Assembly (NCBI GenBank): GCA_947503005.1
Contig: CANNCA010000002.1
Location: 248,001 to 312,000, forward strand
Direction of reading: 5' to 3'
Length of the DNA: 64,000 bases
Source: an uncultured Flavobacteriaceae bacterium
Lineage (GTDB): Bacteria; Bacteroidota; Bacteroidia; Flavobacteriales; Flavobacteriaceae
A model generated the notes under the pieces. It ran no database searches, was not told the DNA's origin, and worked only from the letters and a program-made list of their open reading frames with translations. The translations under genes and the position numbers were made by a program. Shown here in pieces: positions 4,246-18,771 of this stretch (the stretch's first letter is position 1; each line of letters opens with the position of its first letter).

Positions 4246-4713
4246 ATGAAAATATTAATCTTTTATCTTTTAACATTCGCCGTATTCCTTAGTGCCAAAG
4301 GGCAAGAACAAAAGGTGGAAATTGTTCTTGATTCTTTTTACCATACGGCACCTAAGACTAATGAAGCATTTATTTTGACCTGTAATGCTCCGGGTATAGT
4401 TGTTCAATATGTCTCTGCTGATTACTATCTCCCGTTCAAACTTTATGAATTTTCTTCAAAAAAGGAGAATTGGTTGGACATTCAATCCATCTACAACACA
4501 TTGACAACTAAAGTTCCCAGTATTTCAATTCTTCCAAATATTTATCCGAATAGGGCGCCAAGTATCAAAATTCGGGGCGAAGAGCACACTATAATAGTAG
4601 TAGATGGTATCAGATACGATGCTTCCATTTTAAATACACTTAACCCAGCGAATATTGAATCAATTAACGTTGCACCGAGTGCGGCGGCTACTCATTATTT
4701 ATTAAACAACTAA
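4246..4713 (+). CDS. Short exported protein with a TonB-plug-like end
   Basis: 155 aa with a signal peptide ending near AKGQ. The C-terminal half has the shape of the end of a TonB plug: SIKIRGEEHTIIVVDGIRYD, then LNPANIESINVAPSAAATHY. These match the usual receptor elements IRG..., VVDGV... and 'dIesieVlKd..a..yG'. No barrel and no carboxypeptidase regulatory domain are present. It ends 5 bp before the next gene and is probably co-transcribed. Function unknown. It could be a truncated relative of the plug proteins downstream. Confidence 0.7.
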   Translation: MKILIFYLLTFAVFLSAKGQEQKVEIVLDSFYHTAPKTNEAFILTCNAPGIVVQYVSADYYLPFKLYEFSSKKENWLDIQSIYNTLTTKVPSISILPNIYPNRAPSIKIRGEEHTIIVVDGIRYDASILNTLNPANIESINVAPSAAATHYLLNN

Positions 4714-9016: not shown

Positions 9017-11251
9017 ATGAAAACCAAAATCGCACTTATTGTTTTATTGCTTTTCACTTTTGTTGGAACAACTCAAGAAGTACATAACGATAAAACAACC
9101 ATCTGTTGGGATGTATCCGCCTCAATGGAGTCCCGCGATTTGGACAAAGAACTTTCTGTTTTGGACAAAATTTTTCAAAGAAACGGAGACCAAGAAGTGC
9201 AATTGCTATTATTCGGTATAGACCTCGACGAAAGGAATTATACGATAAAAGACGGTAACTGGGCACAGCTTAAAAAAGATCTGGAAAATGTCCAATATGA
9301 TGGTGGAACAATATATGCAGCACTTAAGGGAAAAATAAAAAATCAAAATGTATATGTCTTTACGGACGGACAAAAAACGTTGACCAAAGATATATTGTCT
9401 TTGGAAGGAAAAAGTTTTTTAATAAACAGCAGCCCAAATCGCGATGCAAAATTTTTAGAGCGCACAGCGCTATTGAACAAAAGTCGTTTAATGGATTTTG
9501 CAACGATGCTTCCTGAAAATGTCAAGAAACTACAGCAAAAGGCAACTGAAACAAAAAAAAGTCAAGAATCGAGAATTCAGGGAACGGTTTATATAGATAA
9601 CAAACCAGCACCAGACGTACGGGTTGCGATCAAGGGTATATCCGATAGTTTCTTGACAGGTGCTTCAGGTTATTTTTCGATTCCCGCACAAGTAGGTGAT
9701 ACGTTGGTTGTCACCAGTAGAAATAGCAAAACAATTAAAACCGTTCCTGTAGAAATTATGGGACGTACCGATGTTTTTATGACCTCAAACATCGTTGCGT
9801 TGGATGAGGTTATTGTTGTAGAAAAAGAGTTGAAAAAAGCGGAAATGACGCTAACGGGCTATGGACTTCAGCGACAAGAGGCAATTGGGTATACAGTTTC
9901 CGAGGTTGATGATAAAGATATTTCTGAGGTCACCACTAATGTTGGTGATGCCATAAACACAAAGGTGCCCGGACTCGAAATAACTGGAAAAATAGAGGTT
10001 GGGGGTAAACAAGCGGGTGGTCTTGGTGCTGCAAGAATCAGGGGGAACGGTAGCATAAATATGAATACGAACGCCTTGGTAGTTGTTAACGGGGTTCCCA
10101 TGCGAAGAAGTGAGACTTCAGGTGCCCGTGGTGCATATACTACTACAAATGCAAATATGGATTTTATCGACCCCGCTAATATTGCGAAAATCACAGTCTT
10201 AAAAGGATTGGCAGCAACGAATGCTTGGGGTAGCGAGGGCCGTGGGGGAGTTATCTTAATAACTACCAAAACAGCTGTATACGGCACTGGCGAAGACGAA
10301 AAACCAGTGGATCGGGCACTTCTTAAAAATAATGTTTATGATGAAACACAAGGTGAATTGGCGTCAGATACAAGTCCGATCACTGTTGCCTTGAATGGGA
10401 GTGAATCGGTTGATGATGCTTATAACACGTATATGGCTCTTAAGAACTTGAACCAAGGCCATATCGAATTCTATTTGGATGCATTCAACTACTTCAAGGA
10501 AAAAGACGCAAAAATAGCTGGTAGGATTGTTTCTAACCTCTTGGAATGGAAAAGCGGTGATGTTGAGGTTTTGAAGGTAGTATCGAAGGCATTGGCAACC
10601 ATAGGTGACCATGAAAATGCAATTCGAGTGAATGAAGAAATCATTAAAATGACTCCTTCTGATGTCAACGCCTATTTGAGCAGTGCCACGGCAAAAACTG
10701 AATTAGGAAAGTATCAAGAAGGTTTAAATGAGTTATTAGCTCTTGAAAAGGGTACAAAATATTTTTCCGTAAATGCATCTGGAATTTCAAAGACCTTGAA
10801 ACGCGAAATAAAAAACCTGATTGCAATGCACAAAAATAAGCTTGACTTGACCAATGTGCATCCCGAATATTTAAAAAATCTAAAGTATAAGGTGCGCCTC
10901 GTTTTTGAATGGAACATTCCAGCAGCCGAATTCGAATTGCAATTCGTAAATCCGCAGAAAAGATTCTTCAACTGGGAACACACCAATTCTGCCATTAGAT
11001 CACGTATGGAAAATGAACTAAAGAGTAACTATCGGGTCGAGGAATACGAGTTTTATGGCGATGTAGCAGGGAAGTGGGTTATTAATGCAAAATACTTAGG
11101 TGAAACTTTGGGGTCAGATGAAGTACCTTTAGTTTTAAAAACAACTATTTATGAGGATTTTGGATCGCCCACCCAAAAAAGGGAAGATATTCTGGTCCAT
11201 TTTTCTAAGCCGGGAGAGAAAAAGAATTTAAAGAATCTTTTGGTCAATTGA
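9017..11251 (+). CDS. Exported VWA / plug / TPR / DUF2135-like protein (array member 1)
   Basis: 744 aa and the largest member of the tandem family. Order: signal peptide; a compact VWA domain with MIDAS residues D32, S34, S36, T98 and D117; a carboxypeptidase-like regulatory domain (about 186-262); a SusC-like plug (about 305-418: VPGLEI, ARIRGNGSI, ALVVVNGVPM, IDPANIAKITVLKG, GGVILITTK); TPR-like helices (about 500-600); and a C-terminal domain (about 635-735) with EWNIPAAEFELQFVNP and GKWVINAKYLG that resembles DUF2135/YfaP. The barrel that follows a plug in real receptors is absent. Partner and ligand unknown. Confidence 0.8.
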   Translation: MKTKIALIVLLLFTFVGTTQEVHNDKTTICWDVSASMESRDLDKELSVLDKIFQRNGDQEVQLLLFGIDLDERNYTIKDGNWAQLKKDLENVQYDGGTIYAALKGKIKNQNVYVFTDGQKTLTKDILSLEGKSFLINSSPNRDAKFLERTALLNKSRLMDFATMLPENVKKLQQKATETKKSQESRIQGTVYIDNKPAPDVRVAIKGISDSFLTGASGYFSIPAQVGDTLVVTSRNSKTIKTVPVEIMGRTDVFMTSNIVALDEVIVVEKELKKAEMTLTGYGLQRQEAIGYTVSEVDDKDISEVTTNVGDAINTKVPGLEITGKIEVGGKQAGGLGAARIRGNGSINMNTNALVVVNGVPMRRSETSGARGAYTTTNANMDFIDPANIAKITVLKGLAATNAWGSEGRGGVILITTKTAVYGTGEDEKPVDRALLKNNVYDETQGELASDTSPITVALNGSESVDDAYNTYMALKNLNQGHIEFYLDAFNYFKEKDAKIAGRIVSNLLEWKSGDVEVLKVVSKALATIGDHENAIRVNEEIIKMTPSDVNAYLSSATAKTELGKYQEGLNELLALEKGTKYFSVNASGISKTLKREIKNLIAMHKNKLDLTNVHPEYLKNLKYKVRLVFEWNIPAAEFELQFVNPQKRFFNWEHTNSAIRSRMENELKSNYRVEEYEFYGDVAGKWVINAKYLGETLGSDEVPLVLKTTIYEDFGSPTQKREDILVHFSKPGEKKNLKNLLVN

Positions 11252-11375
11252 TGCTTATCGATTGAGTACCAAGTGGGTCAAGGCTTACAAAAATTAACAT
11301 TTAAATAGATGTAAAGTCCAGATGGTCAGGTAGTAATATCAATAAAATTTTGTAACTTGAGATAAAACTAAAGCT

Positions 11376-13238
11376 ATGAAAAAGTTATTGTTTCTTCTCG
11401 TTTTGATATCCAGTTTTGGCCTTGCCCAAGAAAAAACAATTTTCGGAACTGTTACAGATGGTTCAGCTCCTTTGAAAAACGTTGCTATTTCTATCAACGA
11501 TGCCTCAGAGGCAATATTTACCGATGATAATGGTAAATATAGAATTGACGCAAATGTAAACGATAAGATAAAATATTCGTATCAGGGTTTTAAGAATATT
11601 GTGATTAAAGTCGAAGATGTTACCCGTGTTTTGAACTTGAATATGGTACTTGATATTCAAGAGCTGGAAGAAGTTACGGTACTTGGCAGTAATCGAAAAT
11701 CACAAAAAGTCTTGGAATTGGAGTATCCATCTAATTTCAATATTATCAGAACAGCTTTTGGGTATATAAATGCGGAAACCGCTCCGGGAAATGTTCGGTT
11801 TTTAAATAGTGACGAAATCGATCCGGTCTACCTTTGTATTTTAGACTTGTTAAGAAACCGATTTAGCGGTATTCGAGTTCAAGGGGAGTGTAGCGGCGCT
11901 TTCGGACCCACAATAATAAACTCCGCTGAGAACGCAAGTAATCAAGAAGGACAAATTGAAAATGAAGTTAGTATTTTCGGTTCAGCATCCAATGCGGGTA
12001 CAGGGGTTCGTTCTAATCTAAATCAAGGAAAAGTATTTGTACGAGGTACTTCCTCACTGTCAAACCCAAGGTCCGCAATTTTTGATGTCGATGGACAAAT
12101 TCTAAACGATGCGCCGTTGTGGTTGGATATAAGGAATATCAAACGTTTGGCGATATTGAATAATTTTGCCGCTTCAACCTCATACGGTAGTGCAGGAGCC
12201 GGCGGGGTTATTGTTATAAACACGATATCAGGTAGTCCAAAATCGGATGAAATATATGATCGGGCAAGGTTGCGGAATAATTTTGTTTCTGATAACATCA
12301 TTTCACAAGAAGATTTAAAAAACAACGCACCAAGCTATATGGCAGATATTAAAGCAAGCCAATCTTTGGAGGAGGCGAAAAGGATATACGAAGGATATAC
12401 GAAATCATATGGTGGACACCCTTATTTTGTACTAGACATGCAGCGGTATTTTAAGGAACGTTGGGGTGCTTCCGATTTTTCCAACGAAATTTTCAAGAGT
12501 AAGTCTTTTTTATTTGAAAACAATCCGGTTTTGTTAAAGGCATTGGCGTACCAATCAGAGGCGTTAGGAGACTTTGAAGAGGCGAATGAAATGTACAAAG
12601 AGGTCTTGCGATTACGCCCTAATTACTTGCAATCTTATCTTGATATGGCCAATAGTTACAGGGATATTAGAAAGCCGCAACAAGCGGCATCTATCTATAC
12701 CCGTTACAATTATTTACTCGAAGAGGGAATTCTGAAAAATGATTCTATTGGTTTCGCTAATCTATTTGAGCGTGAGTACAACAACTTTTTGCTCTTGGAT
12801 AAAAATAGCATTGTCAAGAAAGGAACCGCAAGCGAGTTATTTGTGGCGGAGGAAGATTTTGAAGGCACACGATTGGTATTCGAATGGAACGATAGCGAGG
12901 CCGAGTTTGATTTGCAATTTGTAAATCCTGAAAACCAGTTCTTTATGTTGAAACACAGTCTAGCCGACAATGCAGATATGATTGCAAGGGAAAAAGAGTA
13001 TGGTTATAGTGCCGTAGAGTATTTAATAGATGGTTCGTTGCCAGGCACATGGAAGGTCAATATGAATTATTTAGGAAATAAGAGTCTGACACCCACTTAT
13101 TTAAAGGCAACCGTTTACTACAACTACGGAACCTATGCCCAACGTAAGGAGGTGAAAGTGTTCAAACTTAGCCTTAAGAATACACCCCATGAATTATTTG
13201 CCATTTCGGTCGGAGCGAAATTGGCTTTAAATAACTAG
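11376..13238 (+). CDS. Exported plug / TPR / DUF2135-like protein (array member 2)
   Basis: 620 aa. Signal peptide (cleavage near GLAQ), regulatory domain (about 20-95), plug-like region (about 140-290) with VFVRGTSSLSNP, AIFDVDGQI and GSAGAGGVIVINT, two or three TPR units (LLKALAYQSEALGDFEEA, then RPNYLQSYLDMANSYRD), and a DUF2135-like end (EWNDSEAEFDLQFVNP; GTWKVNMNYLGN). It lacks the VWA domain of member 1. The plug contains an Asn/Glu-rich insert (about 175-215) missing from the other members. A 124-bp gap separates it from member 1. Confidence 0.78.
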   Translation: MKKLLFLLVLISSFGLAQEKTIFGTVTDGSAPLKNVAISINDASEAIFTDDNGKYRIDANVNDKIKYSYQGFKNIVIKVEDVTRVLNLNMVLDIQELEEVTVLGSNRKSQKVLELEYPSNFNIIRTAFGYINAETAPGNVRFLNSDEIDPVYLCILDLLRNRFSGIRVQGECSGAFGPTIINSAENASNQEGQIENEVSIFGSASNAGTGVRSNLNQGKVFVRGTSSLSNPRSAIFDVDGQILNDAPLWLDIRNIKRLAILNNFAASTSYGSAGAGGVIVINTISGSPKSDEIYDRARLRNNFVSDNIISQEDLKNNAPSYMADIKASQSLEEAKRIYEGYTKSYGGHPYFVLDMQRYFKERWGASDFSNEIFKSKSFLFENNPVLLKALAYQSEALGDFEEANEMYKEVLRLRPNYLQSYLDMANSYRDIRKPQQAASIYTRYNYLLEEGILKNDSIGFANLFEREYNNFLLLDKNSIVKKGTASELFVAEEDFEGTRLVFEWNDSEAEFDLQFVNPENQFFMLKHSLADNADMIAREKEYGYSAVEYLIDGSLPGTWKVNMNYLGNKSLTPTYLKATVYYNYGTYAQRKEVKVFKLSLKNTPHELFAISVGAKLALNN

Positions 13239-13356
13239 AATCACTTGTTGCAGGGTTTTCCCCTTTATTCTTTAAAAGAGTTAGCAATTCTTCTAAACAA
13301 AACTTAAATCGGCAAGATTTTTGAGGGTATTTTCTTATATTTTAATATTCCAGACC

Positions 13357-15117
13357 ATGAAAAGACTTCTCTTTACGTTAGCGACCCTTATTTTTATTAC
13401 TTCCACCTACGCTCAAGAAAATCTCAAGACCATAAAAGGTAAGATAACCTATCTCGAAGGTCCAGTAGCTAATGCTGATATAAAGGTATCCGGTACAGAA
13501 ATGATTTTAAAATCGAATACGGATGGAAGTTATGAGGTACAAGCCTACCAGGGAGATATCATCACTTTTTCTTATCCGAGTTTACGAGATATGGAAATCG
13601 TGGTGGAAGATGTGACGCGTATTTTGAACATTACCATGTCACCAGAAATCAATGAGTTAGATGAAGTAGTAGTGCAAGCTAGTAAACGTCGAAGTCAAAA
13701 TGACTTGCGGGAGGATTATGCTATCAATAAAAATATCATTCGAACAGCTTTTGGGTATTTGGATGCAGAACGTTCTGCCGGAAAGATTAGGATATTGAAC
13801 GAGGATGAGATCAATGCCGTTTCGCTTTGCGTATTAGACATGATGAGAAGCAGATTTCCTGGAATCATTGTTTCTGGGGATTGTAATAAGGGAGGAGAAG
13901 TTTATTCTGCAAGGGGTCTTAGACCTGGACCAATGATTTGGGATGTTGATGGACAGATTATTGCCAATCAAGGACCTTTTACGCCCAGTGCCCCAATTTG
14001 GATTGATGTGAGGAATATCAAACGGGTAGCTGTAATGAATAGTTTGGCCAATACTGTTTCGTATGGTAACCTTGGTGCTCCTGGAGTAATAGTCATTAAT
14101 ACCATTGGTGGAATTGTAGGCTCCGAGTCCGGAAAATTCTTGGACCGCGCCCGTCTTCGGAACAACATCTTCAAAGATGACGCACTTTCCCAAAGCGATT
14201 TATCCAAAAACGAACCCACCTATTTATTGGATTATAAATCAAGTACATCCATCGATACGGCGAAATCGGTTTATGAAAACAATTTAAAGAAATATTTTAA
14301 CTCCCCACATTTCCTTATCGATTCATACGCTTACTTTTTGAACAAAGGCGAAGAAAAGTTTGCCACGGATATTTTAAGTAAGAACCTACCACTTGTTGAC
14401 AAAAATGCGGTATACTTAAAAGCTTTGGCCTATTATACAGAAGCCAATGGTGATTTGAATAAAGCAAAAGATTTATACGAACAGGTCTTTATTTTACGGC
14501 CTAACTACGTACAGTCCTATCGTGATTTAGCTGAAAGCTATCGTAGTGTCAAGAAATACAAAAAGGCAGCATCGATGTATGCTCGTTATAATTATTTGGT
14601 AGCGGAAAGTTTCCTTCCATCGGACAGCTTAGGGTTAGGGGCAATTATTGATCGGGACAGCGAAAACCTCATGGCTCTTGAGGGCGATAAAGTAATGGAG
14701 GGTGGAAAGGTACAAACTAGACTAGCAAAGTATACAGAATTTGACGGCACACGTATGCTTTTCGAATGGAACGATAGTGAGGCGGAATTCGAATTACAGT
14801 TCGTAAATCCTGAAAAACACTATCATACATGGAAACATACTTGGGTAGCCAATGAAAACCGCATAAGGGATGAAAAACTAAAAGGCTATTCTTCCGAAGA
14901 GTTCTTGATTGATGCATCTCTAGCAGGTAATTGGCAAGTGAATATCAACTACAAAGGCAATAAAAAGTTGGAACCGACCTACTTAAAAGTAACGACCTAC
15001 TTCAATTACGGCTTGAATTCGCAACGCAAGGAAGTAAATGTATACCGACTCTCTTTAAAAGATACGAACCATAAGTTGTTCGATCTTATGAACTCAGGTT
15101 CGGTCCGAAGTAATTAG
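13357..15117 (+). CDS. Exported plug / TPR / DUF2135-like protein (array member 3)
   Basis: 586 aa from the ATG at 13357, which begins a normal signal peptide (MKRLLF to TYAQ). The in-frame extension upstream begins only with TTG at 13321. Regulatory domain about 24-100, plug about 140-252 (IWDVDGQI, APGVIVINT), TPR helices about 345-425, DUF2135-like domain about 480-575. It is the close paralogue of member 4: regulatory, TPR and C-terminal parts are nearly the same, while the middle of the plug differs. Two cysteines inside the plug (CVLDMM, GDC) recur in members 2 and 4 and could form a disulfide. Confidence 0.78.
   Translation: MKRLLFTLATLIFITSTYAQENLKTIKGKITYLEGPVANADIKVSGTEMILKSNTDGSYEVQAYQGDIITFSYPSLRDMEIVVEDVTRILNITMSPEINELDEVVVQASKRRSQNDLREDYAINKNIIRTAFGYLDAERSAGKIRILNEDEINAVSLCVLDMMRSRFPGIIVSGDCNKGGEVYSARGLRPGPMIWDVDGQIIANQGPFTPSAPIWIDVRNIKRVAVMNSLANTVSYGNLGAPGVIVINTIGGIVGSESGKFLDRARLRNNIFKDDALSQSDLSKNEPTYLLDYKSSTSIDTAKSVYENNLKKYFNSPHFLIDSYAYFLNKGEEKFATDILSKNLPLVDKNAVYLKALAYYTEANGDLNKAKDLYEQVFILRPNYVQSYRDLAESYRSVKKYKKAASMYARYNYLVAESFLPSDSLGLGAIIDRDSENLMALEGDKVMEGGKVQTRLAKYTEFDGTRMLFEWNDSEAEFELQFVNPEKHYHTWKHTWVANENRIRDEKLKGYSSEEFLIDASLAGNWQVNINYKGNKKLEPTYLKVTTYFNYGLNSQRKEVNVYRLSLKDTNHKLFDLMNSGSVRSN
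14932..15002 (+). repeat. 71-bp identical repeat, copy A (array member 3)
   Basis: Identical to 16792-16862 in array member 4, at an offset of exactly 1860 bp. It encodes the core of the DUF2135-like domain. Flanking coding sequence is also highly similar, with scattered silent changes. Confidence 0.9.
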
Positions 15118-15234
15118 AAGAATCGAATGGTATGCTTGCTAATACCACGAAGTTTTAAAGTAAGTTAAGAAGCCTTACGTGAAAAGAAAGTTTACGTAAC
15201 CTCGTTTTTGAAGTTTAATGCTAAATACCAACCC

Positions 15235-16977
15235 ATGAAAAGATTTTTTTCACTTCTCGTCGCCCTTATCTGCTTTACAGCCACCTACGCCCAAGAAAAC
15301 CTAAAAACCATAAAAGGTAAAATCTCTTACCTCGGAGGACCTGTGGTTAACGCGGATATTAAAGTGTCTAGCTCTGAAGAGATTTATAAGTCTACCATTG
15401 ATGGTTCATATGAAGTAAATGCTACCCAAGGTGATATTATTACATTTTCCTATCCCAGCCTTCGTGACATGGAAATTGTTGTTGAAGATGTAACCCGTAT
15501 TTTGAATATTACAATGTCTCCCGAGTTTACCGAGTTAGACGAAGTTGTAGTTCAAGCTAGTAAACGCCGCACACAAAAAGATTTAAAAGCTGAATATCCA
15601 ATAGATAAAAATATTGTTAATACCCTATGGGGATATATTGATGTTGAGAGAGCGCCTGGTCAAGTTTGGCTTATGAGTGAAGAAGATATTAGCCCAGTTA
15701 GAATATGTATTCTTGATTTACTACAAGGTAGGTTCCCCGGCGTACAAGTAAGTGGTGATTGTTTCAATGGGGGAGCGGTGACTTCAAGAAGATATAGTTC
15801 TATAACACAAGGTCGATCATTTGTGTTTGAAGTAGACGGACAACTTTTTAAAGATGCACCAATATGGGTTCCTGTGACCGCAATGAAGCGAATTGCTATT
15901 TTTCCTGGTTTGGCGATGGCATCTAGGTATGGGACACTAGGTGCCGGCGGTGTAATTATTATAAATACTGTGAATGGAAACCCCCAAATTAACAAGTTCG
16001 TTGACAGAGCTCGTCTTAGAAGTAATATTTACGAAGACGATGCACTTGCTACTTCTCAAGTTGAGAAAAACATGCCAGAATATCTTGTCGATTATAAATA
16101 TAGTTCGTCTTCTGAAATTGCGATTGCTGTCTTCGACCACCATTATGGGAAGTATCATAACTCACCCTACTTCTTCATTGATTCTTACGGCTATTTCATG
16201 AGTACGGGTAAGGAGAAATTTGCACAAGATATTTTAATTAAAAACCTACCACTTGTTGATAAAAATGCGGTATACTTAAAAGCGTTGGCCTATTATGCAG
16301 AAGCCAATGGAGATTTGAATAGGGCTAAAGATTTATACGAACAAGTATTTATTTTACGCCCCAATTATGCGCAGTCATACCGTGATCTGGCAGAAAGCTA
16401 TCGCAATGCCAAGAACTATAAAAAAGCGGCATCAATGTATGCCCGCTATAATTATTTGGTGGAGGAAGATTTCCTTCAGTCCGACAGCTTGGGTTTGGGC
16501 TCGATTATGGACCGGGATTCAGAAAATCTCATGGCTCTTGAAGGGGACAAGCTGATGGAAAGCGGAAAACCACAAACTAGGCTTGCCAAATACACTGAAT
16601 TCGATGGCACACGTATGCTTTTCGAATGGAACGATAGTGAGGCAGAATTCGAATTGCAGTTCGTAAATCCCGAGAAACATTACCATACTTGGAAACATAC
16701 TTGGGTTTCAAACGAAGACCGTATACGGGACGAAAAACTTAAAGGCTATTCTTCCGAAGAATTTTTGATTGATGGGTCTCTAGTAGGTAAATGGCAAGTG
16801 AATATCAACTACAAAGGCAATAAAAAGTTGGAACCGACCTACTTAAAAGTAACGACCTACTTTAATTACGGTTTGAATTCACAACGTAAGGAAGTAAACG
16901 TATATCGCTTGTCGTTGAAAAATATCAATCACAAGTTATTTGATGTGGTAAATTCAGGAAGAATTTCAACCAACTAA
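15235..16977 (+). CDS. Exported plug / TPR / DUF2135-like protein (array member 4)
   Basis: 580 aa from the ATG at 15235 (MKRFFS, signal peptide to TYAQ). A TTG at 15208 would add nine residues and is unlikely. It has the same architecture as member 3, with the plug-like part about 140-250 (FVFEVDGQLF, GAGGVIIINT). Its stop lies 12 bp before member 5, which indicates one transcript. The 3' end is nearly identical in DNA sequence to member 3, including 71 identical bases, which points to recent duplication or gene conversion. Confidence 0.78.
   Translation: MKRFFSLLVALICFTATYAQENLKTIKGKISYLGGPVVNADIKVSSSEEIYKSTIDGSYEVNATQGDIITFSYPSLRDMEIVVEDVTRILNITMSPEFTELDEVVVQASKRRTQKDLKAEYPIDKNIVNTLWGYIDVERAPGQVWLMSEEDISPVRICILDLLQGRFPGVQVSGDCFNGGAVTSRRYSSITQGRSFVFEVDGQLFKDAPIWVPVTAMKRIAIFPGLAMASRYGTLGAGGVIIINTVNGNPQINKFVDRARLRSNIYEDDALATSQVEKNMPEYLVDYKYSSSSEIAIAVFDHHYGKYHNSPYFFIDSYGYFMSTGKEKFAQDILIKNLPLVDKNAVYLKALAYYAEANGDLNRAKDLYEQVFILRPNYAQSYRDLAESYRNAKNYKKAASMYARYNYLVEEDFLQSDSLGLGSIMDRDSENLMALEGDKLMESGKPQTRLAKYTEFDGTRMLFEWNDSEAEFELQFVNPEKHYHTWKHTWVSNEDRIRDEKLKGYSSEEFLIDGSLVGKWQVNINYKGNKKLEPTYLKVTTYFNYGLNSQRKEVNVYRLSLKNINHKLFDVVNSGRISTN
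16792..16862 (+). repeat. 71-bp identical repeat, copy B (array member 4)
   Basis: Second copy of 14932-15002. See the entry for copy A. Confidence 0.9.
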
Positions 16978-16989
16978 GCATACCAAAAC

Positions 16990-18771
16990 ATGAAAAGATA
17001 TTTACAAACTACTGTACTTATTTTTATGTCCCAAATAATCTTTAGCCAAAACGATGAGGTAACGGTTACCGGAGAGGTAACGGATGGATTGCAACCCCTA
17101 TCCGATGTAAACATTACAATTCAAGGAAGCACAAAAGGTACAAAGACGAATACTCAAGGCAAGTATGTTTTAAATGCCATAGAAGGTGATGTTATTTTGT
17201 TCAGCCATATTGGACATGAATCCGTTGAAATTATCATTGAGGACACGGATCGAACGCTGAATTTAGTGATGAATCCTGACATAGAGGTATTGGACAATGT
17301 GACGGTAACTCAAAAGAAGAAAACCCGAAAAACCCAAGAGAAATTATTTCTGGAGTATAATACCAATCCCAATTTGATAAAAACGCAGTTTGGTATTTTA
17401 GATAAGGAAATCTCGGGGACTTCGATGTATATTTTAGATGAAGAGCAGATTAATCCTGTAGCTACAAACATTCTTGCCGTACTTAATGGTAAGTTTCCCG
17501 GAGTCAAGATGAGTCCAAAAGGGGACCCTACAAGAACCACGAGTCCACTGGACCCAGGCGCGGTGATCTACATACGAGGAGGTGGTTCAATAAGTAATCC
17601 CACTCCGGCTATCTACGAGGTTGATGGTTTTGTTTATGTAGACCCGCCACTTTTTTTAGATGCCCAGAACATTAAGCGTATTGCACTTTTACCATCCTTT
17701 GCATCTGCAGCGAGATATGGTAACATTGGGGTAGGCGGTGTTTTTATAATCAATACAAAATCGGGTAATTTTTCTCCAAAAGATGGAGATTCTGGTTTAG
17801 TTGATAAAGATTTACTTCGAAATAACAATGTTCAAAATGTTGTCCTAGATTACAAAGACCTAAACAAAGATGGCCCAACGTATCTGACTGAACTAAGAAA
17901 GAGTAAAGACTTTGATGAGGCAAAAGGAATTTATCAGAAGTTTTTGACTAGTTATAGTAGTTCAATGCACTTTGTATTGGATGCCTATCAATATTTCTAT
18001 GATAATTTGGAAAAACCCAAATTTGCCGACAACATTATTGTAAAACACCGAAGTCTTTTTGAAAACAACGCTATGGCTTTAAAGGCCCTTGCATACATAT
18101 ACCAAGTACAAGGACGTTTATTAAAGGCTCATGAAGCTTTTAAAGAAATTTTTGTCTCTCGACCCAACTACGCTCAGTCTTACTTTGACTTGGCGAATAG
18201 TTATCGAGAAATTGAGCAGTACGAAAAAGCTGCAGGTATTTATGCGCGATATAGCTATTTATTGGAAGAAGGCTTTGTTCAACCTGAGCCAAATTTCGAT
18301 GTATTATTGACTCGAGAATATAAAAACCTATTGGTTCAAAAGGGTGACAAGCTTCTCAGTAGAAAAGCCCAAAAAAAGGTATCCGAGTATACAGAGGTGG
18401 TTAATACTCGTTTAGTATTTGAATGGAATGATAGCGAGGCTGAATTTGAGCTTCAATTCGTAAATCCCAAGGGAAAATATTTTAAAACAGAACACTCATT
18501 ATTTGCGAGTCCGGAGCGTATACGAAGTCAGAAAATAGCGGGCTATGCTATGGAAGAACATTTGATTGATGAATCAATGCCAGGTAAATGGCAAGTGAAT
18601 ATAAGATATTTAGGAAATAAAAGTTTGACCCCAACATATCTAAAGGCAACTGTTTATCATGATTATGGTAGCCCCTCGCAACTAAAAGAAATTAAGTTTT
18701 TTAAATTGACCCTTAAAAATATAAATCAAAAATTATTTGAATTGTATAACACGTCTAAAGTTTCTAACTGA
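16990..18771 (+). CDS. Exported plug / TPR / DUF2135-like protein (array member 5)
   Basis: 593 aa. Signal peptide to about residue 19; regulatory domain about 23-100 with the usual TNTQGKYVL core; plug about 135-260 (VIYIRGGGSISNPTPAIYEV, then GVGGVFIINTKSG); TPR about 350-425; DUF2135-like end (EWNDSEAEFELQFVNP, GKWQVNIRYLGNKS). Its plug is closer to standard SusC plugs than those of members 3 and 4. The stop overlaps the next start by one base (TGATG), so the two genes are translationally coupled. Confidence 0.78.
   Translation: MKRYLQTTVLIFMSQIIFSQNDEVTVTGEVTDGLQPLSDVNITIQGSTKGTKTNTQGKYVLNAIEGDVILFSHIGHESVEIIIEDTDRTLNLVMNPDIEVLDNVTVTQKKKTRKTQEKLFLEYNTNPNLIKTQFGILDKEISGTSMYILDEEQINPVATNILAVLNGKFPGVKMSPKGDPTRTTSPLDPGAVIYIRGGGSISNPTPAIYEVDGFVYVDPPLFLDAQNIKRIALLPSFASAARYGNIGVGGVFIINTKSGNFSPKDGDSGLVDKDLLRNNNVQNVVLDYKDLNKDGPTYLTELRKSKDFDEAKGIYQKFLTSYSSSMHFVLDAYQYFYDNLEKPKFADNIIVKHRSLFENNAMALKALAYIYQVQGRLLKAHEAFKEIFVSRPNYAQSYFDLANSYREIEQYEKAAGIYARYSYLLEEGFVQPEPNFDVLLTREYKNLLVQKGDKLLSRKAQKKVSEYTEVVNTRLVFEWNDSEAEFELQFVNPKGKYFKTEHSLFASPERIRSQKIAGYAMEEHLIDESMPGKWQVNIRYLGNKSLTPTYLKATVYHDYGSPSQLKEIKFFKLTLKNINQKLFELYNTSKVSN

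Follow-up and report, generated by a model that had tools for sequence, protein, structure and literature searches.

What is understood of the plug and the TonB box comes mainly from proteins with an outer-membrane barrel. In the SusC/RagA TonB-dependent transporters (TIGR04056; for example BT1763), the SusC N-terminal Ig-like domain (NTE), a TonB box and a plug are joined to a 22-strand outer-membrane barrel. Here, we analyzed five tandem genes (P0001 to P0005) in a 64,000-nucleotide stretch of DNA from an uncultured Flavobacteriaceae bacterium (CANNCA010000002.1, positions 248,001 to 312,000), which is called the window and is part of contig C2 of a 4.58 Mb genome. The array proteins match the transporters in the NTE, the box (by sequence) and the plug, in the same order and at near-equal spacing. 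However, where SusC has its barrel, they have TPR helices and a beta-sandwich.

The array also resembles three other kinds of protein. The VIT-VWA-TPR-DUF2135 proteins of Bacteroidia (L151, L152, L172-L184) have a TPR part and a C-terminal domain homologous to those of the array, and three of those fetched (L151, L152 and L172) carry the whole SusC cassette. In contrast, the array proteins have no VIT, four of the five have no VWA, and, by eye, four of the five have DSEAE in place of the DTDID-type stretch of DUF2135. Escherichia coli has a DUF2135 match, presumably YfaP, which has a DUF2135-type end domain in common with the array proteins; YfaP is not known to carry a plug, an NTE or a box. 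Inner-membrane-tethered vWA proteins with a YfbK-like fold have been proposed as force transducers in the accessible part of PMC12204202. In those proteins, as far as that part describes them, VWA is tied to Ton-type parts, and P0007, a neighbour of the array, is likewise a YfbK-type protein with NTE, box and plug. However, besides a membrane helix they have what is predicted to be a motor box, whereas the array proteins have a receptor-side box and no such helix (by eye).

The literature was searched for barrel-less plug proteins, for DUF2135 (found in none of its papers), for VIT together with TonB and for the annotation names, and gave no description; most subscription papers and all bioRxiv preprints lay beyond its range. 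Within this range, the original prediction that the architecture was undescribed held. The domains are known, and their combination, the reduction series and the mosaic arrays were not found described. The array proteins fall outside the TonB-dependent transporters, having no barrel, and outside the VIT proteins, having no VIT.

Domain anatomy of the array proteins

The original prediction had placed five adjacent genes for exported proteins at 9017, 11376, 13357, 15235 and 16990. Five plus-strand open reading frames of 744, 620, 586, 580 and 593 aa were confirmed there (Table 1), and export is borne out by sequence, since a signal-peptide-like leader was seen by eye at the start of all five. 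The carboxypeptidase-like regulatory domain claimed for each was recovered by profile search as CarbopepD_reg_2 (PF13715; E 1.3e-5, 3.2e-9, 5.7e-7, 1.3e-3 and 2.5e-11; two of five over the curated cut-off). A plug had likewise been claimed for each. Pfam Plug matched four at E<=1 (P0001 4.3e-13, P0002 0.016, P0003 7.1e-4, P0005 3.1e-5; two over the cut-off) and gave no match for P0004 at this threshold. The NCBIfam SusC model (TIGR04056) matched all five (E 7e-11 to 3e-29). These scores are far below the cut-off set for the whole protein, as the match is confined to the N-terminal part of the model, with the best stretch lying within its first 207 of 981 positions.

TPR helices and a DUF2135/YfaP-like C-terminus had been claimed for every protein, and profile matches to each were found in four of the five. 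Pfam TPR models matched all but P0001. DUF2135 also matched four proteins, none over the cut-off of 22 bits (three at 20.2-20.4 bits, E 6e-4; P0005 at 14.3 bits, E 0.046), and Pfam gave no match in P0001. The link to DUF2135 is made firmer by L151 and L152, whose C-termini are homologous to the array C-domains and exceed the cut-off. VWA_2 was matched in P0001 alone (E 7e-4, below the cut-off; motif DVSAS), with no Pfam VWA match in P0002-P0005; the DxSxS motif was present in 19/19 VWA-bearing relatives. This N-terminal VWA, and the plug sequence at 4246 and 4719, were absent from the original prediction, as were the VIT-VWA relatives and the mosaic evolution described below. No VIT match was found in the five proteins, nor genome-wide at E<=0.001, and no membrane helix beyond the signal peptide was seen by eye.

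Table 1. Array genes, domains and neighbouring genes, with positions in the window.
Feature	Position	Strand	Description
P0009	4246..4713	+	155 aa; plug-like sequence alone; Plug E 1.3e-7
P0007	4719..6827	+	702 aa; NTE-box-plug fused to YfbK-type VWA protein; Plug E 1.5e-7, YfbK_C E 6e-71
P0001	9017..11251	+	744 aa; leader, VWA aa 28-118, NTE 187-267, box ALDEVIVV, plug 289-412, helices
VWA domain of P0001	9098..9370	+	VWA_2 E 7.4e-4, below cut-off; motif DVSAS
P0001 C-terminus			DUF2135-like end, placed via alignment to the other four proteins
P0002	11376..13238	+	620 aa; NTE-box-plug-TPR-C-domain (Pfam, NCBIfam, alignment)
P0003	13357..15117	+	586 aa; NTE-box-plug-TPR-C-domain; member chosen for structure model
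NTE of P0003	13420..13659	+	Model 3-82 vs 9hfj: Z 13.7, rmsd 1.9, 79 aligned
TonB-box-like peptide LDEVVV of P0003	13657..13674	+	Block mean pLDDT 46; aligned to VDEVVVT of SusC BT1763
Plug of P0003	13696..14109	+	Model 118-232 vs SusC 6z9a_B: Z 11.1, rmsd 2.4, 106 aligned
TPR helices of P0003	14188..14697	+	Pfam, structure model
C-terminal beta-sandwich (DUF2135-like) of P0003	14743..15093	+	Pfam E 5.7e-4, 20.4/22 bits; separate model pLDDT 89.7
P0004	15235..16977	+	580 aa; close paralogue of P0003 (72%), plug divergent
P0005	16990..18771	+	593 aa; NTE-box-plug-TPR-C-domain (Pfam, NCBIfam, alignment)
P0006	18771..19904	+	377 aa; two CarbopepD_reg domains flanking middle part

An AlphaFold model of mature P0003 was built on 119 sequences (mean pLDDT 90.8, pTM 0.75; 462/567 residues at pLDDT of at least 90). 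In the numbering of the mature protein, it runs from a beta domain (strands 4-63) through a low-confidence segment (84-90) to an alpha/beta domain the size of a plug (95-230), after which come helices (260-427) and finally a beta-sandwich (445-560). The structure scores of NTE and plug in Table 1 come from a second comparison of Foldseek's candidates, in which most remaining rows were TPR proteins. A 22-strand barrel had been named beforehand as the outcome contrary to the predicted lack of one; no barrel follows the plug in the P0003 model, which has the helices and the beta-sandwich instead, and the other four proteins were judged by alignment. One profile stretch is collinear with the NTE, box and plug of BT1763 (profile 4-244 against residues 27-240 of 1041), and residue 240 or so is what we take to be the start of the barrel. 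The earlier idea that the plug is reused as a module is supported.

No clear relative of the C-domain was found in the PDB: the best Foldseek E of 0.033 and the best Z of 6.5 (rmsd 4.1 over 100 residues) are at background level, and a PDB sequence search gave a single match at E 0.38. The NTE domain also matched BamP weakly; the accessible part of PMC12611786 was without bearing.

The preserved plug could also act in trans, with the proteins docking into, or competing for, the barrels of TonB-dependent transporters and so gating or inhibiting them. The plug fold is kept, and so is the plug arginine (model R167, at least 90% of the alignment). However, all 22 PF00593 barrel matches in the genome share a frame with a plug match (hand-matched; PF00593 detects only part of all barrels), so that none of these matches is an empty barrel, and we regard this explanation as unlikely.

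The TonB-box-like peptide

The peptide LDEVVV sits between NTE and plug. Its conservation was estimated in alignment A2, which holds 115/128 core proteins after an 82% redundancy filter and four window proteins, P0001 being left out (119 rows). The leucine is present in 119/119 rows, the two valines in 117/119 and 112/119, and the glutamate in 106/119. The box is the least confident block of the P0003 model and is predicted to be disordered; its information (model 81-87) averages 3.03 bits, whereas that of the other low-confidence blocks averages 1.30. At the NTE end, 160/179 proteins of all forms carry the strict motif L-x-[EN]-[VI]-x-[VLIM], against a mean of 4.6 and a maximum of 11 in shuffled segments and 0/179 in TPR stretches of the same length. 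Eleven of the 19 proteins missing the strict motif read LxGVxV.

The box of BT1763 reads DEVVVTG (82-88), and box mutants showed growth defects like those from loss of SusD, according to the accessible part of PMC7782687; the NTE deletion described there spanned residues 3-76. The source genome holds five TonB_C matches. Because the TonB box is retained, interaction with TonB is our leading idea of what the array proteins may do. For the competition over SusD-like partners that the original prediction had also raised, no sign was seen.

Our second choice is that the plug is only a fold recycled for protein-protein interaction and carried by a scaffold in the periplasm; the box would then be a leftover or an NTE-plug linker with no TonB role. 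It may be explained in this way that the plug occurs in several barrel-less contexts in this genome (P0009, P0007 and a 231-aa NTE-plug frame at G000:C6), that 9/13 VIT-type relatives in the class sample have no box motif ahead of the TPR part, and that 19/179 family members miss the strict one. However, an idle linker would not explain a near-invariant box in a predicted-disordered region, far over the shuffled expectation, and we hold this TonB-free module to be a doubtful, though serious, possibility.

Mosaic arrays, relatives and neighbouring genes

In alignment A2, P0003 and P0004 are 92% identical in the C-domain and 37-49% in the two plug halves; overall dN is low (0.19) and dS is near saturation (not computable for 3/7 segments). 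We then compared same-locus with different-locus pairs in this alignment, using pairs with C-domain identity >0.75. Plug identity was below TPR identity in 17/17 same-locus pairs versus 125/180 different-locus pairs (180 for protein and 188 for codon identity, gaps being handled differently). At shared residues, codon identity was 0.42 in the plug, 0.60 in the TPR part and 0.67 in the C-domain for same-locus pairs, versus 0.40, 0.44 and 0.44 for different-locus pairs. The C-domain minus plug difference was +0.25 in same-locus pairs (positive in 17/17) versus +0.04 (128/188). Silent identity that is higher in one part is not expected from selection at the protein level, whereas it is expected if conversion acts on the chassis and spares the plug. 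In genes 2 and 4 of Croceitalea dokdonensis (L055), nucleotide identity rises from about 0.5 to 0.97-1.0 near the plug/TPR border. These comparisons are indicative of gene conversion, which may homogenise the chassis within arrays while the plugs stay distinct.

In alignment A2, the nearest neighbour lay in the same locus for 20/85 C-domains, 18/85 NTEs, 18/85 TPR parts and 5/85 plugs, and discordance between C-domain and plug was 16 to 1. Since the nearest plug relatives were in other loci in 80/85 cases, plug types seem to persist across species. Mosaic arrays in which the plug varies and the chassis is constant would also suit decoys or sinks, in which soluble TonB-box proteins blunt TonB-directed bacteriocins or phages and conflict diversifies the plugs. 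However, the locus is fixed and syntenic rather than mobile, the plugs have those relatives in other loci, and the five proteins scanned had no match in the PADLOC library; a decoy role is thus quite improbable. A defence system was rejected on the same PADLOC result.

A contig profile scan gave 164 relatives, of which the best 80 were taken and 73 loci kept. Domain counts cover these loci (L038-L110; L001-L037 and L111-L139 left out). Among the best 80 of 164, the named records closest at this locus come from Maribacter and further Flavobacteriaceae. We found 160 proteins with plug and C-domain, and 131 of them have the NTE-plug-TPR-C-domain architecture; the rest include 19 with an N-terminal extension (VWA), six with an extra REG half, two with a double NTE-plug and two without a detected NTE. 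Multi-copy loci, which the survey proposed with the original prediction was to look for, recur: 54/73 carry 2-6 members. With 131/160 proteins sharing one architecture in 73 loci, the array is not due to chance.

This result also bears on whether the proteins are degraded TonB-dependent transporters on their way out. They do hold the N-terminal quarter of SusC without a barrel. However, the conserved architecture, on which this explanation was rejected, the low dN against near-saturated dS in P0003-P0004, and a TPR/C-domain chassis common to the VIT proteins make it extremely improbable.

The site is syntenic in Flavobacteriaceae, an M24-type peptidase adjoining in 54 and a carboxylase in 57 of the 73 loci. 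Nine non-array clusters occur in at least 40/73 loci. None was accepted as a linked partner gene, as they look syntenic and mostly housekeeping-like (for example M24-type peptidase, acyl-CoA carboxylase, ABC-F, AMP-ligase; names mostly read from sequence, with M24 and AMP-binding from Pfam). Promoter and terminator scans gave counts near the shuffled expectation. In the family sample, the five-protein profile finds matches at E<1e-40 in about 127/397 genomes (counted by hand) and at E<=1e-15 in 383/397, the weaker ones probably being SusC plugs. In the class-wide sample, the core profile has matches at E<=1e-35 in 11/295 genomes: the source genome, one other family member, and nine outside the family with frames of 1003-1234 aa, four of which were shown to carry VIT.

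The VIT-type relatives suggest a possible origin. L151 and L152 combine VIT, VWA, NTE, TonB box, plug, TPR and DUF2135, and the SusC model matches their inserted part strongly (L151 E 1e-83, positions 2-225/981; L152 E 1e-77, 3-238/981). Among these relatives, VWA was found by Pfam in L151 only, below the cut-off, and by motif in the others. DUF2135 occurs in 14/247 genomes of the class sample, at 15 places, of which one in a 99-aa frame (G452) was left out of the fetched set. Among the 13 long proteins fetched, VIT was found in 5/5 tested, L172 has the full SusC cassette, and L174, L176 and L182 have the box and only the N-terminal part of the plug (by eye), which suggests decay or partial capture of the cassette. 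L173 and L184 show plug-like remnants (by eye) despite having no box motif.

The C-domain alignment holds 111/163 and five window proteins. A quick tree of the TPR and C-domain parts was built from 102 rows, with every fourth core protein and SH-aLRT support only. L149 and L150 were omitted from it because they repeat L050 and L044, and L175 and L185 belong to the same genome. Its labels follow a rule, a few of them loosely, and long branches occur in three rows. All 86 VIT-less rows group together (SH-aLRT 100), with L151 and L152 adjoining them, and most VWA-bearing forms branch outside the core forms, although support for the root split is weak (26). It is therefore probable, as judged from this tree, that VIT and then VWA were lost in Flavobacteriaceae. 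The cassette may have been gained a single time, with later decay in part of the lineages, or repeatedly.

Some neighbouring genes and other fusions were also observed. P0007 and P0009 are two more barrel-less plug genes, upstream of the array, and proteins of 699 aa and 206 aa that resemble them (by eye) form clusters present in 10/73 and 6/73 loci. P0006 overlaps the P0005 stop by one base and ends past its second regulatory domain; its domain order is that of the N-terminal half of 868-893 aa REG-REG-PLUG-TPR-CTD proteins from other loci, of which it is a split-off or truncated form. Elsewhere in the genome (L196, C6:36500-39500), a frame of 231 aa that consists of NTE-like and plug sequence alone (plug E 1.7e-8) lies near another CarbopepD_reg-like frame (by eye). 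A 1305-aa protein (L144:3836-7750) has two complete NTE-plug-TPR-C-domain units with a VWA-like stretch between them. Two NTE-plug units precede a single TPR/C-domain at L050:9848-12355 and L052:5372-7924, and three at L140:3751-6954.

Location and proposed working

The original prediction had placed the proteins in the periplasm or on the surface. By simple patterns, the leader is signal-peptidase-I-like in 110/137 core proteins, and the four lipobox-like matches all lie inside the hydrophobic run. A periplasmic location is therefore likelier; the surface alternative found no support.

The anatomy, the missing barrel, the conservation of the box, the likely origin and gene conversion are supported by computation. 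We infer a soluble periplasmic state, TonB binding, recognition of a partner by the plug, and force coupling. A soluble protein with a TonB box and a plug but no barrel would most simply be a TonB client in the periplasm. The N-terminal quarter of a SusC gene (NTE, TonB box and plug) may have entered a VIT-VWA-TPR-DUF2135 protein; loss of VIT and then of VWA in Flavobacteriaceae would have left NTE-box-plug on a TPR and beta-sandwich chassis, and the reduced gene would have multiplied in tandem. TonB would bind the exposed box. The plug, distinct between neighbours and with its nearest relatives in other species, may recognise a specific partner, while the chassis, homogenised within the array, may meet a common one. 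Pulling by TonB could then rearrange or release the bound partner without a barrel. We put at about even the chance that the array proteins act in the periplasm as soluble clients of the Ton motor, the plug being variable and the chassis constant.

Several results weigh against this proposal. The box could be kept for another reason, as it stands directly after the NTE, and the boxless VIT-type relatives indicate that the chassis can exist without it. No conserved partner gene was found in the 73 loci beyond the syntenic neighbours. Nor does the plug exceed the other parts in variability over its whole length: family-wide mean identity is 0.30 in its N-terminal half and 0.46 in its C-terminal half, which is as conserved as NTE (0.40) and TPR (0.39). 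The TPR minus plug difference in codon identity is positive in only 14/17 same-locus pairs (127/188 different-locus), and the C-domain minus plug contrast (p 3e-10) is indicative only, since pairs overlap and 6/17 come from one locus. The isolated FepA plug behaves as an unfolded protein, according to the accessible part of PMC11658791. A neisserial plug, however, is reportedly stable alone.

A family retaining plug and box in the absence of a barrel (160 members in the 73 loci examined) would imply that Ton-type energy or recognition serves something besides import. The array proteins would offer a barrel-free system for studying contacts of plug, box and TonB in solution, and the mosaic arrays indicate which part may set identity (the plug) and which part is common (the TPR/C-domain). 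More tentatively, it is possible that they form a soluble, barrel-free Ton branch, in which the motor would act in the periplasm on interchangeable plug adaptors. These would have one chassis in common, kept alike by conversion, and a plug type each, so that the locus would be a panel of Ton-driven handles for different partners.

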